Shown here one piece after another: positions 2,778-32,805 of a DNA stretch of 42,812 nt. The notes beneath the pieces were generated by a model, which was not told the DNA's origin, ran no database searches, and was given only the letters and a program-made list of their open reading frames with translations. The translations under genes and the position numbers were made by a program. Source of the stretch: a virus. Position 1 is the stretch's first letter; every line of letters begins with the position of its first letter. The stretch spans positions 1 through 42,812 of the IMG/VR virus record IMGVR_UViG_3300023179_000199, one strand, 5' to 3'.

Positions 2778-3646
2778 TGGCAAGTAATATTGTAAATATT
2801 AATAATACTGATAATAATATAACAGTAACTAACGCTAATCAAAAAGTAATAGTTACTGATAATAATACCGGTATATCAGTTAATGTTACGAATCCAAAAA
2901 CATCGATAGTTCAAGTAAATGCTTTAGGTCCGCAAGGAGGTATAGGAGCACAAGGCCCTGCAGGAAATATAGATACATCTTCATTTGTAACTACATCTTC
3001 GTTTAATACATTTACTAGTTCTTATAATACAGGTTCATTCAGCGGCTCATTTACAGGACAATTAATTGGTACTGCAAGTTGGGCAAATTCATCATCGCAA
3101 GCGCTAACAGCGTCCTTTGTCACTGCATCCAATGTACGAGGTCCATACGGATACAATTCCATATTAAGTGCATCATATGCTTTGAGTGCGTCCTGGGCGC
3201 CGAGTGGTGGAAGTGCTACGCCAGCCGGCTCTGATAGACAAATTCAATTTAACTCTAATAATACATTTGCAGGAGACACTTCGTTAACATTCGATAGTGA
3301 AAGACAATTAAATGCACAAAGACTGAAAGTTACTGGTAGATTTATTTTAGAAGGCAGATCTCTTATTACCGCTGATGATAGTCCATATACTGTAGGTATT
3401 GATGAAACGGTTATATTGTGTAATACAACGAAGGATCCAATTGACCTTAATCTAGAAGCTGCCAGTATACAAGGTAAAGTTCTAATAATAAAAGACATAG
3501 GCGATGCATCCTTAAACAATATAACATTAGGAAATGCAAAAATAGACGGGACAGAAAGCAGTTTTAATATTACCCGTAGTAAAGGAAGCATAATTATCAC
3601 ATATGATATATCTACAGCTAGCTGGTACATAATCGGAGCATATTAA
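2777..3646 (+). CDS. Tail fibre-like protein with short collagen-like segment
   Basis: A 289-residue appendage protein. The first 45 residues are Asn/Val-rich. A short collagen-like run (GPQGGIGAQGPAG, residues 51-63) follows, then the TGSFSGSFTGQLIGTASWA module and ALTASF/ALSASWA repeats shared with the large fibre protein upstream. From about residue 150 comes a domain starting DRQIQFNSNNTFAGD and ending in beta-rich sequence (DISTASWYIIGAY). The Gly-x-Pro segment and repeats indicate a trimeric fibre. It is translationally coupled to the 128-residue protein. Tip and receptor specificity cannot be read from the sequence. Confidence 0.6.
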   Translation: MASNIVNINNTDNNITVTNANQKVIVTDNNTGISVNVTNPKTSIVQVNALGPQGGIGAQGPAGNIDTSSFVTTSSFNTFTSSYNTGSFSGSFTGQLIGTASWANSSSQALTASFVTASNVRGPYGYNSILSASYALSASWAPSGGSATPAGSDRQIQFNSNNTFAGDTSLTFDSERQLNAQRLKVTGRFILEGRSLITADDSPYTVGIDETVILCNTTKDPIDLNLEAASIQGKVLIIKDIGDASLNNITLGNAKIDGTESSFNITRSKGSIIITYDISTASWYIIGAY

Positions 3647-28221: not shown

Positions 28222-28608
28222 GTGAGTCAATTAGTATGTGTGTTTTCACTAAAAGAGAATTTAGATTATACGACTAATATAATAGAATCGACATATTTTG
28301 TACTATTCAAAAAAATCTTTATATTAGGCATTGAAGATAGCGAAGAGTTCATTTGCAGTTTTAATATTGATAAAGAAATGCAGCGAAAGCAATTACCTAA
28401 TGCAATGTTAGTACATAAAAAAAGAGATACAAATACAATTTATACCATTAACTCATTGAACGCTTTAATTAAACAACAGAATAACGGAGTATTAGATAAG
28501 TCATTTAAAATTGAATGGGCTAATTACTCAAATGGAATATTATTGTTGTCAAACAACGAACTAAAGTTCCTGACTACATATTTATATCAAATAATAAATG
28601 TTAAATAA
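28222..28608 (+). CDS. Unknown protein between polymerase and ssDNA-binding protein
   Basis: A 128-residue protein starting at GTG with a strong Shine-Dalgarno (AAGGAG). Sequence such as ESTYFVLFKKIFILGIEDSE suggests a small alpha/beta fold with hydrophobic strands, but I see no known motif, Cys cluster or membrane segment. Its position between the DNA polymerase and the ssDNA-binding protein suggests a replication accessory role; this is guilt by neighbourhood only. Confidence 0.5.
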   Translation: MSQLVCVFSLKENLDYTTNIIESTYFVLFKKIFILGIEDSEEFICSFNIDKEMQRKQLPNAMLVHKKRDTNTIYTINSLNALIKQQNNGVLDKSFKIEWANYSNGILLLSNNELKFLTTYLYQIINVK

Positions 28609-28611
28609 AAT

Positions 28612-28640
28612 TTGCAACTTACGTAAGAATTCATTATATT
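28612..28640 (+). promoter_or_regulatory. Sigma70-like promoter for the ssDNA-binding protein gene
   Basis: TTGCAA (28612-28617) and TATATT (28635-28640) are 17 bases apart, close to the bacterial consensus spacing. The -10 flank AAGAATTCATTATATT closely resembles the one before the zinc-ribbon gene (39670-39698). This differs from the ATATTTAT type and probably serves earlier expression. It is inferred from sequence. Confidence 0.5.
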
Positions 28641-28673
28641 CAATAACAATTAACAAATAAATAAAGGTAAATT

Positions 28674-29459
28674 ATGGCAATTAATTTAGACACCGTTAGG
28701 CAGAAGTTATCGCAACTTCAAAATGTTACGACAAAGCAAAACAATTTATGGAAGCCTGAACCAGGCGCGCAACAAATAAGGATAGTTCCTTATCAGCACA
28801 ATCGAGACAATCCATTTTTAGAGCTTTACTTTCATTATAATTTCGGCGGTAAGAACATGTTATCCCCTATTACTTATGGAAGACCTGATCCGATTGTAGA
28901 ATTTGCAGAAAAATTAAAATCATCTGGTAGTAAAGAAGATTGGAAAATGGGCAAGAAGCTTGAACCGACGATGCGTTGTTATGCACCTATTATTGTGCGT
29001 GGTAAAGAGCATGAAGGTATTAAGTTTTGGGGTTTTGGTAAAACAGTTTATCAAGAACTTTTAGGATTTATTGCAGATCCTGATTACGGTGATATTTCAG
29101 ATCCAATGAACGGACGTGATATTACAGTCGAATTTAAATCGAAAGACCAGACAGGTAAAGATTATCCAGAGACGTCAATTCGTATTAAACCGAATGTGAC
29201 TCCGATAACTACGGATAAGTCTGTATTAGAAAAAATTGGTAATCAGCCTAACATTAATGACATCTTTAAAGAACCTTCTTACGATGACTTAATGAAAGCA
29301 TTACAAGATTGGTTGAATCCATCAGAAGAGTCCGCGTCGGCAGACCCAGCTAAAAGCGACAATCAAAAACAGAATAAGGCTTCAATTGAGTCTTCTTCAA
29401 CCGCAGCATCGTCTGTAGATGATATCGGTGCGGCATTCGATCAACTATTTAACAAGTAA
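28674..29459 (+). CDS. 32: Single-stranded DNA-binding protein (gp32-like)
   Basis: A 261-residue protein that probably coats single-stranded DNA during replication and recombination. The N terminus (MAINLDTVRQKLSQLQ) is the helical part used for cooperative binding. The core holds IRIVPYQHNRDNPFLELYFHY near 36-55 and KFWGFGKTVYQELLGFI near 122-138. The C-terminal tail is Ser/Asp-rich and ends SVDDIGAAFDQLFNK, an acidic protein-contact tail. Only one Cys is present, so the zinc module of T4 gp32 is absent. It lies directly upstream of uvsX; both act in recombination-dependent replication. It has its own sigma70-like promoter. Confidence 0.82.
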   Translation: MAINLDTVRQKLSQLQNVTTKQNNLWKPEPGAQQIRIVPYQHNRDNPFLELYFHYNFGGKNMLSPITYGRPDPIVEFAEKLKSSGSKEDWKMGKKLEPTMRCYAPIIVRGKEHEGIKFWGFGKTVYQELLGFIADPDYGDISDPMNGRDITVEFKSKDQTGKDYPETSIRIKPNVTPITTDKSVLEKIGNQPNINDIFKEPSYDDLMKALQDWLNPSEESASADPAKSDNQKQNKASIESSSTAASSVDDIGAAFDQLFNK

Positions 29460-29473
29460 TTTAAGGAGCTATT

Positions 29474-30625
29474 ATGGCAAAGAAATCTATTGAGATTGAT
29501 TCTTTACAAGATGAACTGGCCGGTATATTAGCAACGAATCTTAACAAAAAATTTAAAAGTAGTAATTATAAAGTAGCTTACTTTCTGGAAGGGGACGATG
29601 ACTCCCCTTCTGAAGTAAGTGAATGGATTTCTACCGGTAGTTCAATGTTGGATTTGGCTATTAGTAATCGACCTAATGGGGGACTACCCGTTGGACGTAT
29701 TACTGAAATCACCGGATTAGAAGCGTCAGGTAAATCGTTATTGGCAGCACATGTGTTAGCCAATACACAAAAGAAAGGCGGATTGGCAGTATATATTGAT
29801 ACTGAAAATGCAATATCCCGAGAATTTCTTCAAGCAATTGGAGTTAATTTAAAAGATATGCTTTATGTTCCGTTAGATACTATCGAAGACATTTTCGATG
29901 CAATTGATTCAATTATTGAATCTGTACGTAAAACAGATAAAAATAAAATTGTTACGATTGTAGTAGATTCAGTCGCCGGTGCTTCAACTAAAATTGAAAT
30001 GGCAGCTGATTATGATAAAGATGGTTATGCAACATCAAAGGCATTGATTTTATCAAAGGCAATGCGTAAGATAACTAATTTTATAGGACGCGAACGTATT
30101 TGTATGATATTTACAAATCAGTTACGTACTAGAATGGGCGTTAGCTTTGGAGATCAATGGACTACGAGCGGTGGTAAAGCAATTGCATTCCACTCGTCAG
30201 TAAGATTACGTTTAAAATCCGTAGGACAAATTAAAGTAACTAAAGAAGGCCGGGATGAAATTTTAGGAATTAAAACGCGCGCTCAAGTAATTAAGAATCG
30301 TATGGGCCCTCCATTGAGAATGGTTGATTATGATATCTATTTTGAATCCGGTATAGACGATTACGGTTCTTGGTTAGAAATGCTTAAGAATTTTAATTTA
30401 GTAACTCAAGCAGGTGCATGGTATACATATACTAATACCGAAACGGGGGAAATAATTAAATTTCAGTCTAAGGACTTTGAAAGTAAAATAATGGATAATG
30501 CTGAATTAAAAGATCATATTTATAAAGAGCTTTGTTCAAAATATATTTTAAAATACAAAGCCGGTGAAGATTTTGGTATTGATGATGTAACTGTTGATAC
30601 TGATTTCGAAGGCGAAGAAAGTTAA
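29474..30625 (+). CDS. uvsX: RecA-like recombinase (UvsX)
   Basis: A 383-residue strand-exchange ATPase. Walker A is GLEASGKS (81-88), the RecA-type catalytic Glu is in YIDTENA (Glu111), and Walker B is TIVVDSVAG (161-169). IFTNQLRTRMGVSFGDQWTT contains the loop 1/loop 2 region for DNA binding, and GGKAIAFHSSVRLRLKSVG follows. The C terminus is acidic. Size matches T4 UvsX (391). Shine-Dalgarno AAGGAG is strong. The stop overlaps an ATG (TAATG at 30623-30627) that begins the relic 5' end of the exonuclease gene, so the ancestral arrangement was probably a coupled uvsX-exonuclease pair. Confidence 0.92.
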   Translation: MAKKSIEIDSLQDELAGILATNLNKKFKSSNYKVAYFLEGDDDSPSEVSEWISTGSSMLDLAISNRPNGGLPVGRITEITGLEASGKSLLAAHVLANTQKKGGLAVYIDTENAISREFLQAIGVNLKDMLYVPLDTIEDIFDAIDSIIESVRKTDKNKIVTIVVDSVAGASTKIEMAADYDKDGYATSKALILSKAMRKITNFIGRERICMIFTNQLRTRMGVSFGDQWTTSGGKAIAFHSSVRLRLKSVGQIKVTKEGRDEILGIKTRAQVIKNRMGPPLRMVDYDIYFESGIDDYGSWLEMLKNFNLVTQAGAWYTYTNTETGEIIKFQSKDFESKIMDNAELKDHIYKELCSKYILKYKAGEDFGIDDVTVDTDFEGEES

Positions 30626-30737
30626 TGAAATCTAAATACTCTGAATTGCTAAAACAAATTCGCGTCACTGATAGAATTTAGATAATTTAGTTGATACTTT
30701 TATTGGTAAATTTACCGACAATACGATATTTATTTAA
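30625..30737 (+). pseudogene. Relic of the original 5' end of the exonuclease gene
   Basis: ATG at 30625 overlaps the uvsX stop and encodes MKSKYSELLKQIRVTDRI before TAG at 30679-30681. It lines up with the exonuclease start downstream, MLKHYADLLRQLS (same M, Y, LL and Q, with conservative changes between). One base shift at 30675 continues as NLDNLVDTFIGKFTDNTIFI and stops at 30735-30737; TDNTIFI corresponds to RDSKVLI before the catalytic VDG. So this looks like an old 5' end with a one-base deletion, cut off where an endonuclease gene was inserted. The DNA is diverged from the downstream copy, so it is not a fresh tandem duplication. Confidence 0.6.
30726..30733 (+). promoter_or_regulatory. 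ATATTTAT promoter-like motif before second endonuclease
   Basis: A copy of the recurrent motif 17 bases before the endonuclease ATG at 30750. It also overlaps the last codons of the relic frame, so it may mark the left end of the inserted cassette. Confidence 0.4.
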
Positions 30738-30749
30738 AATAAACTTAAA

Positions 30750-31757
30750 ATGAATATGTATAGCAAGGAGCAACTAAATTATCTTTATTCTTTAATAATA
30801 GATCAAACAAATAATGTATTTAGTCTTACAAATCAAATAATCTTAGATTATTTATCTATCACTAAAAGTAAAAAATTTATTAAGCCTTTAAAGGAAGAGT
30901 TTTATTCAGTATATGATAAAGATTATATAACTTCTATTTGTCGGCAAAAGCAGGGTCGGTACGGAAGTAGCGTGAGAAATTCGACACCGATTCGATATAG
31001 CGATGAAGCTAAAGAAAAAATGAAGTTATCCAGACGAAAATTCTGGGAATCGATACGAGGTACTGAAAGAGAACAACAATTGAAAGAAATTTCCAGAAAT
31101 TCGATGAAACAGTTACACTCACTTAAACTAAATCAAACTGAGGAGGTAAAGGCTAAGCGAATTAATTCCAGAAAAGCTAATAATGAAATTTGGCATACTG
31201 ACGAGACAAAAGAAAAAATTAGTAAGTCTCAAATAGGAAAAATTGTATCCGAAGATACGCGTAAAAAGCAATCAGATGCTGCCCGCGGCAAGCCTAAATT
31301 TGATCGAAGAGGTGAGTTAAGTCCTAGCAAACGTGCGGAAACTCGGCAAAAAATTTCAGAATCCGTTAAATATTTACACCGTATCGGTACTTATCCGTTA
31401 AAAGTAAAATCGAAAGGACATTGCGAAATTGAAACAATTTTATTAAATTTAGGGTATGATATAATTAATGAAGCCAGATTAGGTAGATTTTCATATGATA
31501 TATTAATTAAAGATTTAAACACAATTATTGAGTTTCACGGTACATATTGGCATTTAGATCCAAATAAATATGATAAAGATTTTTATGATAAATCAAAAGA
31601 TAGATTTGCGTATCAACAATGGGAACGTGACGATATACGAAAGTCACACGCAATCGCAACTAATTATAGATACGTAGTGATTTGGCAACAAGAATGGGAA
31701 TCGTTAACCGACGCAGAAAAAATTAAAAAAATTAAAACGATAATTAGTTATGCTTAA
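30750..31757 (+). CDS. Homing endonuclease, EDxHD (Vsr-like) type, next to exonuclease gene
   Basis: A 335-residue free-standing homing endonuclease. Residues 80-210 hold basic NUMOD-like DNA-binding repeats (YSDEAKEKMKLSRRKFWE; HTDETKEKISKSQIGK; RAETRQKISESVKYLH). The C-terminal Vsr-like domain has CEIETILLNLGYD (Glu228), GRFSYDILI (Asp250), NTIIEFHGTYWHLDP (Glu261, His263, His268) and the final YVVIWQQEWE. The fold is the same as in the endonuclease at 13155, but the N-terminal Cys fingers are missing. The last codons overlap the start of the exonuclease frame (ATG at 31750 inside ATGCTTAA). An alternative in-frame ATG at 30756 exists. It likely cleaves the catalytic-motif region of exonuclease genes lacking the cassette; this is inferred from location. 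Confidence 0.8.
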   Translation: MNMYSKEQLNYLYSLIIDQTNNVFSLTNQIILDYLSITKSKKFIKPLKEEFYSVYDKDYITSICRQKQGRYGSSVRNSTPIRYSDEAKEKMKLSRRKFWESIRGTEREQQLKEISRNSMKQLHSLKLNQTEEVKAKRINSRKANNEIWHTDETKEKISKSQIGKIVSEDTRKKQSDAARGKPKFDRRGELSPSKRAETRQKISESVKYLHRIGTYPLKVKSKGHCEIETILLNLGYDIINEARLGRFSYDILIKDLNTIIEFHGTYWHLDPNKYDKDFYDKSKDRFAYQQWERDDIRKSHAIATNYRYVVIWQQEWESLTDAEKIKKIKTIISYA

Positions 31758-32805
31758 ACATTATGCCGATTTATTACGGCAACTTTCACAAGAAAATCAA
31801 TCAGCCGTCGACTTGAACCGTGATTCAAAGGTTCTTATAGTCGACGGCCTTTAACTGAATACCTTTATAAGAGTCTTTAGTGCAGTTCCTATTGTAAATG
31901 ATGATGGCGACCATATAGGTGGTACGTTTGGTTTTATACGTTCTATAGGAGCGATAGTAAGACAATTTAAACCTACTAGATTAGTAATAGTATTTGACGG
32001 TAAGGGAGGTTCTGCTCGTCGAAGAAAAATGCATTCGGGTTATAAAGAAGGACGTAGTTTACCTACGCGCTTTAATAGGTTTGAAGATACTGAACAAACT
32101 GTAGAACAAGAAATTCAATCGTTGCAAAGGCAATTTGGTCGATTGGCAGAATATTTAAATTGCTTACCAGTTACTGTTATATCAATAGATAATATTGAAG
32201 CAGATGATGTTATTAGTTATTTAGCGACTGATGTATTTGTTAAAGAAGAAACAAAGAAAGTAACAATAATGTCAGATGATAAAGACTTTTTACAACTTAT
32301 AGATGAACGAGTTCAAGTATGGAGACCGGTAGAAAAGAAACTTTATGGTCGTAATGAAATGGTTGAAAGATTTGGAATGCACCCGGAGAATTTTTTATTA
32401 TATAAAATCTTCATTGGAGATAATTCCGATAACATTCCAGGTATAAAAGGAGTAGGCCATAAAACCCTACTTAATAAGTTTCCGTTCATTACCGAACATC
32501 GAAAGGTGGATATCGACGAAATATTACAGTATTGTGAAGCAAATAAAGATAGCAAGTATGCTATTTATAAATCCGTACTAGAGCAAAAAGAAAGTATGGA
32601 ACTTAATTATCGATTAATGCAATTACACAATGTAGATATTGCCGGCAATTACAAAACAATGATAATGGATATGGCAGGTAGGGATTCTAATACATACGAC
32701 AAAAATGCTTTTAAGCAATTGTTTATGTTGGATAAGGCCTATACAGTAATTCCTTCGGTAGATAGTTGGTTACAAAATACTTTTAGCAATTTAGCGGCAT
32801 ATTGA
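31750..32805 (+). CDS. 5'-to-3' exonuclease (FEN / T4 RNase H family) with in-frame UAA in catalytic motif
   Basis: One frame from ATG 31750 to TGA 32805 encodes a FEN-type nuclease that would remove RNA primers and 5' flaps. Motifs in order are KVLIVDG (first metal Asp), TFIRVFSAVP, VIVFDGKGGSARRRK, NIEADDVISYL, MSDDKDFLQLI, IGDNSDNIPGIKGVGHKT (helix-hairpin-helix). Codon 35 is UAA (31852-31854), directly after VDGL. Without six bases (CTTTAA) the motif reads VDGLNTFIR, as expected. A start at ATG 32029 would drop two metal-site Asp residues, so a working enzyme needs the ribosome to pass the stop. Sequence after the stop shows no decay. A hop would give about 349 residues. A true nonsense mutation or sequencing error is the alternative. 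Confidence 0.75.
31804..31848 (+). promoter_or_regulatory. Hairpin just upstream of the in-frame stop (possible recoding signal)
   Basis: GCCGTCGACT (31804-31813) pairs perfectly with AGTCGACGGC (31839-31848). Inside it GAACC (31815-31819) pairs with GGTTC (31830-31834). The 3' arm ends at the GGC codon; CUU UAA CUG follows. When UAA is in the ribosomal A site, the 3' arm has just been passed, so refolding behind the ribosome could push it forward. T4 gene 60 uses a 5' stem-loop in this sense. There is no T run, so it is not a normal terminator. Confidence 0.55.
31849..31857 (+). other. Candidate hop site CUU-UAA-CUG
   Basis: Two Leu codons flank the UAA. A peptidyl-tRNA(Leu) moving from CUU to CUG would skip six bases and resume at AAU, giving VDG-L-NTFIR. 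Single-hop stop bypass between like codons is known from reporter studies; natural use here is inferred. Confidence 0.45.

Follow-up and report, generated by a model that had tools for sequence, protein, structure and literature searches.

A 5'-3' exonuclease gene in the window—the whole stretch of 42,812 nucleotides analysed here—is interrupted in its first metal-binding motif by a stop codon that ribosomes very probably hop over. The interruption is best read as a stop-hop element, a short case of programmed translational bypassing, that arrived together with the neighbouring homing endonuclease, and a probability of about 85% is given to this reading on the basis of sequence comparison. It is also rather likely that the element belongs to a widespread mobile family of very short bypass elements (+5, +6, +7 and +11 nt, both in and out of frame), which all occupy the same catalytic codon in the exonucleases of phages and would serve EDxHD homing endonucleases as a phenotypically silent, cleavage-proof mark. 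Such a family would add a third way to those offered by introns and inteins and would include the first natural in-frame stop-hop.

The frame 31750–32805 translates as MLKHYADLLRQLSQENQSAVDLNRDSKVLIVDGL, a stop and LNTFIRVFSAVP..., with the junction reading VLIVDGL-stop-LNTFIRVF. CTT-TAA-CTG (31849–31857) splits the motif (VDG/LN) of an otherwise intact gene. The part behind the stop matches the Pfam families 5_3_exonuc_N (3e-30) and 5_3_exonuc (3e-10), and an intact sister protein matches the 5' nuclease of Taq polymerase across VDG. The gene has a gp32-like SSB, RecA, a DnaB-like helicase and ribonucleotide reductase as neighbours. The in-frame UAA that the earlier note placed within the catalytic motif is real, and about ten lineages show CTT-stop-CTN behind a hairpin. 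The features of the locus are collected in Table 1.

Table 1. Features of the interrupted exonuclease locus in the window.
Feature	Coordinates	Strand	Remarks
Left-over 5' end of the native exonuclease (MKSKYSELLKQIRVTDRI, then stop)	30625..30681	+	Overlaps the RecA stop; start same as MKSKYSELFKQLQNEQ... of sisters L001-L005; nucleotide identity to L001 ends about 30647
Acquired cassette: homing endonuclease and foreign exonuclease 5' end including the candidate bypass element	30648..31857	+	Stretch without counterpart in L001-L005
Homing endonuclease, 335 aa, NUMOD3 region and C-terminal Vsr-like/EDxHD-type nuclease domain (by motif)	30750..31757	+	Pfam NUMOD3 21.6 bits
Translated exonuclease N-terminus, ends before take-off codon	31750..31848	+	33 codons, MLKHYAD...VLIVDG; element-free N-termini are homologous and in the same frame; L016/L054 are close
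Predicted 5' stem-loop abutting take-off codon	31804..31848	+	Outer stem 31804-31813/31839-31848, inner stem 31815-31819/31830-31834; fold kept with different sequences in other lineages
Proposed take-off codon CUU (Leu)	31849..31851	+	Invariant among all +6 elements
In-frame stop codon UAA	31852..31854	+	TAA, TGA or TAG here in other lineages
Proposed landing codon CUG (Leu)	31855..31857	+	All +6 elements have CTN; the five closest sisters have TTA
Rest of 5'-3' exonuclease including stop; N-terminal resolvase-like and SAM-fold domains	31858..32805	+	Pfam; purifying selection

The frame continues behind UAA for 316 sense codons, one fewer than the 317 first counted, and, as had been noted along with that count, it shows no decay: pN/pS is 0.04–0.44 over the whole downstream ORF and 0–0.26 in the first 24 codons after the stop, which amounts to strong purifying selection. 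The N-terminus is likewise under purifying selection, with low pN/pS on both sides of the stop; decay of the region past the stop in relatives, which had been named as evidence to the contrary, is not seen. Normally, a nonsense codon within a catalytic motif would mark a pseudogene. Nevertheless, the idea that the exonuclease is inactivated and decaying, or that the contig is misassembled, deserves hardly any weight in view of the low pN/pS on both sides, the many independent contigs with different stops and the limitation of the junctions to gaps of 8, 9, 10 or 14 nt with the stop at a fixed place.

Endonuclease insertions can divide phage genes into working halves (PMC2988022), and in L073, L075, L091 and L290 an ATG lies two codons past the stop. 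A split gene of this kind—a short peptide ending at UAA, the remainder made by reinitiation and both parts assembling—is, however, very improbable here. The first in-frame ATG, GTG or TTG in the window is codon 58 past the stop (82 codons in L056) and lies beyond the VDG and FDG aspartates, which bears out the claim that a downstream start would lose catalytic Asp residues. Since the window has no standard start codon for 58 codons after the stop, the ribosome must pass through the junction. Moreover, the codons right after the stop are under strong purifying selection, and reinitiation needs no landing codon that resembles the take-off codon.

A search for tRNA genes returned none, suppressor or other, and a change of code was rejected; 23 of the 28 long ORFs of the window end in TAA. 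No Rfam match to a group I or II intron was obtained in the window, L055, L077, L360, L211 or L290, and an intron at the site was rejected on this ground and because the gap is merely 5–11 nt.

Relatives were collected by an unbiased protein search of IMG/VR, which yielded 68, and by further pattern and protein scans. The five sisters L001-L005, 94–98% identical downstream, read VDG-LNSFIR without a stop, and L016, L054, L055, L056 and L057 read VDGL-stop-LNSFIR. The arrangement of the window is also found in about ten other phage lineages, all carriers being metagenomic contigs. The stop is TAA in the window and the L078 group, TGA in L016, L054, the L073 group, L096 and L093, and TAG in L055 and L056; the TGA of L093 stands in the place of TAA in near-identical relatives. 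The consensus of the window-type cases is [A/G]CCGTCGAC-N25/28-GTCGACGG[C/T]-CTT-stop-CTN-AAY. The landing codon is CTN in all +6 elements, whereas TTA or TTG occupies this position in 30 of 82, or 56 of 176, unique sequences of intact genes. The window has CTG where its five sisters have TTA, L290 has CTC versus TTG in its sisters, and L075 has CTT versus TTG in L366/L367. Since carriers have CTN while their sisters have TTA or TTG, the codon change accompanied acquisition of the element.

Recurrence in about ten lineages is not a matter of chance, sequencing error or decay. At the same time, the window-type +6 elements are related by recent transfer and, hence, not fully independent. The N-termini of L210 and L221 are identical, yet 71% of the synonymous sites differ downstream, and the window shares 80% of its nucleotides with L210 over the 45 nt that lead up to the take-off codon and about half after the landing codon. 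The element state on the exonuclease tree requires 10 changes by parsimony, of which eight are forced by starred branches, as gains or losses. A loose hairpin scan without the CTTTRR tail gave GC-rich chance matches only outside this gene, and a 17-mer scan without the left arm added no true case except L196. A scan of bacterial and archaeal genome contigs produced 76 matches, none of them in an exonuclease. Among named phages only distant relatives (<60% identity) were found, the closest annotated ones with an uninterrupted CDS. The exonuclease N-terminus of L225/L089 has 2 nt fewer before the hairpin than the otherwise same element of L221, which changes the upstream frame; it may be a sequencing error or a decaying copy.

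The hairpin of the window, a 10-bp outer stem with an inner 5-bp stem, ends at the codon before CUU and lies exactly where it had been placed. Its 45 nt have a minimum free energy of −22.9 kcal/mol, as compared with an average of about −4 to −8 for synonymous recodings (p about 0.0005, 2000 recodings). Every +6 hairpin also surpasses in stability the synonymous recodings of the peptide it encodes (all codons recoded, p about 0.0005–0.003), and for the inner stem part alone the combined p is 9e-9 with phage codon usage and 2e-5 with flat usage. This recoding test was used in place of formal column covariation, which was not scored because the inner stems change register between lineages. The arms of the +6 hairpins are conserved, with pairing of the end pair kept through a compensatory G-C to A-T change, and inner stems persist across lineages despite different sequences. 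A hairpin abutting the take-off codon is predicted in 19 of 20 interrupted genes versus 30 of 169 intact ones, with median energies of −23.2 and −8.7 kcal/mol, respectively. The +6 elements of L450 and L472 have hairpins of different sequence, and in L475 a hairpin appears when a longer stretch is folded.

Out-of-frame relatives at the same codon were found by scanning with an alignment of the endonuclease, whose close relatives are mostly located before the same exonuclease gene. Written as take-off codon, intervening bases and landing codon, they comprise +5 gaps in L457 (TTG.TA>GTG, about 20 copies), L471 (CTG.TA>GTG) and L475 (ACT.TA>GCT), a +7 gap in L473 and L474 (CTC.TAGC>GTC) and a +11 gap in L453 (CTT.TGAAGAAG>CTG). 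In each of them, a hop to the codon preceding the conserved Asn would restore VDGLN or VDGTN—both sequences of intact relatives. L545/L547 have a downstream protein identical to that of L457 and no gap. Take-off and landing codons match as CTT/CTN in all +6 and +11 elements and at positions 2–3 only in the +5 and +7 elements. Among 332 junctions, the gap lengths are only 3 (intact), 8, 9, 10 and 14 nt, and in all interrupted ones the stop stands directly 3' of the take-off codon; decay would not produce such restricted lengths with a fixed stop position. The sole exception without a matched landing codon is L452 (about 3318–3330), with CTA.TAGA>AAA (+7); the gap adjoins a run of six A, so that an error in length or another mechanism may be at work. 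L446 was set aside as a further gap, being a poly-T length change inside the motif: at about 3325–3360, a run of ten T within the codons just after VIDGTN breaks the frame, with a related endonuclease adjoining. Either a homopolymer error or slippage in transcription may account for it.

Gaps of 5, 7 and 11 nt are out of frame and, hence, can be bridged only by a hop or a shift. This bears on stop-codon readthrough, by which an amino acid would be inserted at UAA to give VDGL-X-LNTFIR, whose catalytic loop would be two residues longer. Being in frame, the window element would give a long product in this way; readthrough is improbable all the same, as the downstream frame equals the upstream frame only for +6 and elements of the same design are out of frame. 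All three stops are used with no suppressor tRNA found, no intact relative has two extra residues at this place, and both the CTN/CTN match and the position of the 5' hairpin would be left unexplained. Conventional −1/+1 frameshifting with a few extra junction residues in the out-of-frame cases, combined with readthrough in the in-frame ones, draws on CUU before a stop being among the most shift-prone P-site contexts, for which PMC5009743 cites the RF2 +1 site. Frameshifting is highly improbable nonetheless: It would demand differing directions and mechanisms at one codon (net −1 for +5 and +11, +1 for +7, 0 for +6), codons offset by −1/+1 would re-pair poorly, e.g., CUC>UCU, and the products would carry extra residues that intact relatives lack.

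Hopping is favoured because three stops occur, the landing codon of the +6 class is always CTN, gaps of 5, 7 and 11 nt exist, the stop follows the take-off codon and a 5' hairpin abuts it. Comparative evidence, therefore, supports what had been proposed as a candidate reading over readthrough, reinitiation, frameshifting and pseudogenisation; the short six-base hop at CUU UAA CUG stands as one member of a +5/+6/+7/+11 series and not as the whole of the phenomenon. In the window, a ribosome would arrive at CUU with the stop in the A site, and the strong upstream hairpin, melted in the mRNA channel, would refold behind the ribosome and drive it forward. The peptidyl-tRNA-Leu would quit CUU, pass six nucleotides (CUU UAA) and re-pair with CUG; decoding would restart at AAU and yield VDGLNTFIR, just as uninterrupted relatives have it. 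It counts against a hop that tRNA(GAG), which decodes CUU, is not fully cognate to CUG or CUA. As for a nascent-peptide stimulator, the residues VLIVDG ahead of the take-off codon are in any case conserved for catalysis. For T4 gene 60, PMC5009743 and PMC11194080 likewise describe a stop in the A site, release of the peptidyl-tRNA at the take-off codon, stem-loops that promote forward sliding by refolding behind the ribosome, and matched re-pairing.

Element and endonuclease were gained as one cassette of ~1.2 kb, as judged by nucleotide comparison: Identity between the window and L001 is 94% over 28601–30647 and 92% from about 31819/31858 on, and the cassette is absent from sisters that are 98% identical downstream. 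Presence versus absence with an empty site is seen between the window and L001-L005 and between L091 and L361-L363. The endonuclease ORF (30750–31757) overlaps the exonuclease start, has a weak MTES_1575 REase match and is 60% identical to an ORF of L077 in the same place. Its assignment as Vsr-like/EDxHD is by motif, the C-terminal alignment featuring invariant KSKGHxExE, YDI, IE[FY]-x-GTYWH-x-D, DKSK.R and W. When the endonuclease was searched against the PDB, the only matches were spurious-looking ones to DARPins, and the solved I-Bth0305I domain was not matched in sequence. Upstream of the exonuclease, an EDxHD-type endonuclease occurs in 8 of 17 interrupted and 4 of 197 intact loci (p=1e-7), a count in which a few matches are low-scoring and from which loci fetched by the endonuclease itself were left out. 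The parallel with T4 gene 60 and MobA drawn from the adjacent endonuclease holds for the cassette gain, both parts being absent in sisters, but not for a MobA-like HNH type, as the enzyme is a NUMOD3 protein with a C-terminal domain that is, by motif, of the Vsr/EDxHD type. It had been asked whether the six bases of related exonucleases occur only with the endonuclease, and they do not: L016, L056 and L359 carry the element without it, as is expected after endonuclease loss. The insert falls where the codons of the gene are most conserved, the likely recognition site; the endonuclease would cut the empty site, and the element would render the allele uncleavable with the protein left intact.

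In L451, L454 and L479, a related endonuclease adjoins an uninterrupted exonuclease. An ORF of 202–209 aa with an HNH-like motif (YYESHHIVP) occupies the same intergenic place upstream of the exonuclease in L078/L211 (L078 being an element carrier) and in the element-free L216, and a second NUMOD3 ORF with a GIY-YIG-like start lies between exonuclease and helicase (L211:4016-4750). RecA, one gene upstream of the exonuclease, is broken in two in L055:711-3380, L077:7749-10211, L360:1045-1899 and L452:1207-2016; in L055 and L077, the two halves are separated by an endonuclease-like ORF (DUF559/Vsr-like). DPWCVDP..TKV.. closes the N half, whereas the C half opens with new sequence, at the end of which lies an intein C-terminal splicing region (TIGR01443, L055). 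The broken RecA is by these signatures a split-intein 'fractured gene', a class reportedly treated by Dassa et al. 2009.

Genes of this kind will be called broken by annotation pipelines, or their starts will be placed too late. They form a natural comparative series in which hop length, stop and landing codon vary and the hairpin placement is common, which makes take-off and landing rules directly testable. In addition, they offer many lineages for testing whether bypass inserts travel with homing endonucleases, an idea hitherto based on T4.

To our knowledge, T4 gene 60 was for decades almost the sole well-studied bacterial-type bypass. The gap there is 50 nt versus 5–11 nt here, in as well as out of frame; the endonuclease of the gene 60/mobA system is HNH and here, by motif, EDxHD type, with a 5'-3' exonuclease as target. 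No KKYK-like nascent-peptide signal was identified here, and gene 60 belongs to one lineage as opposed to many. In the synthetic stop-hops of Weiss et al. 1987, whose title names +5 and +6 shifts, and as PMC5009743 presents them, matched codons flank a stop and 9 nt encode one amino acid—the same layout as CUU-stop-CUN. Those were constructs in E. coli, for which that account describes no dedicated upstream hairpin, while the genes here are natural ones. The same 2016 review states of natural in-frame stop-hops that 'no occurences are known' (PMC5009743); a literature search, with most subscription journals out of reach, found no report of this element, and the window element would be the first such case. 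The mitochondrial byp elements of Magnusiomyces capitatus are likewise short inserts that are bypassed, with codons not always perfectly matched, according to PMC5009743. They occupy 81 sites over the organelle genes and are apparently context-independent, whereas one position with a hairpin and a linked endonuclease is used here. The EDxHD homing endonuclease I-Bth0305I shares, as far as motifs show, the NUMOD and Vsr-like/EDxHD-type domains, and it has phage genes as targets (PMC3943268). Known EDxHD members reside in introns or between the halves of split-intein genes; here, the insertion would be tolerated by translational bypass.
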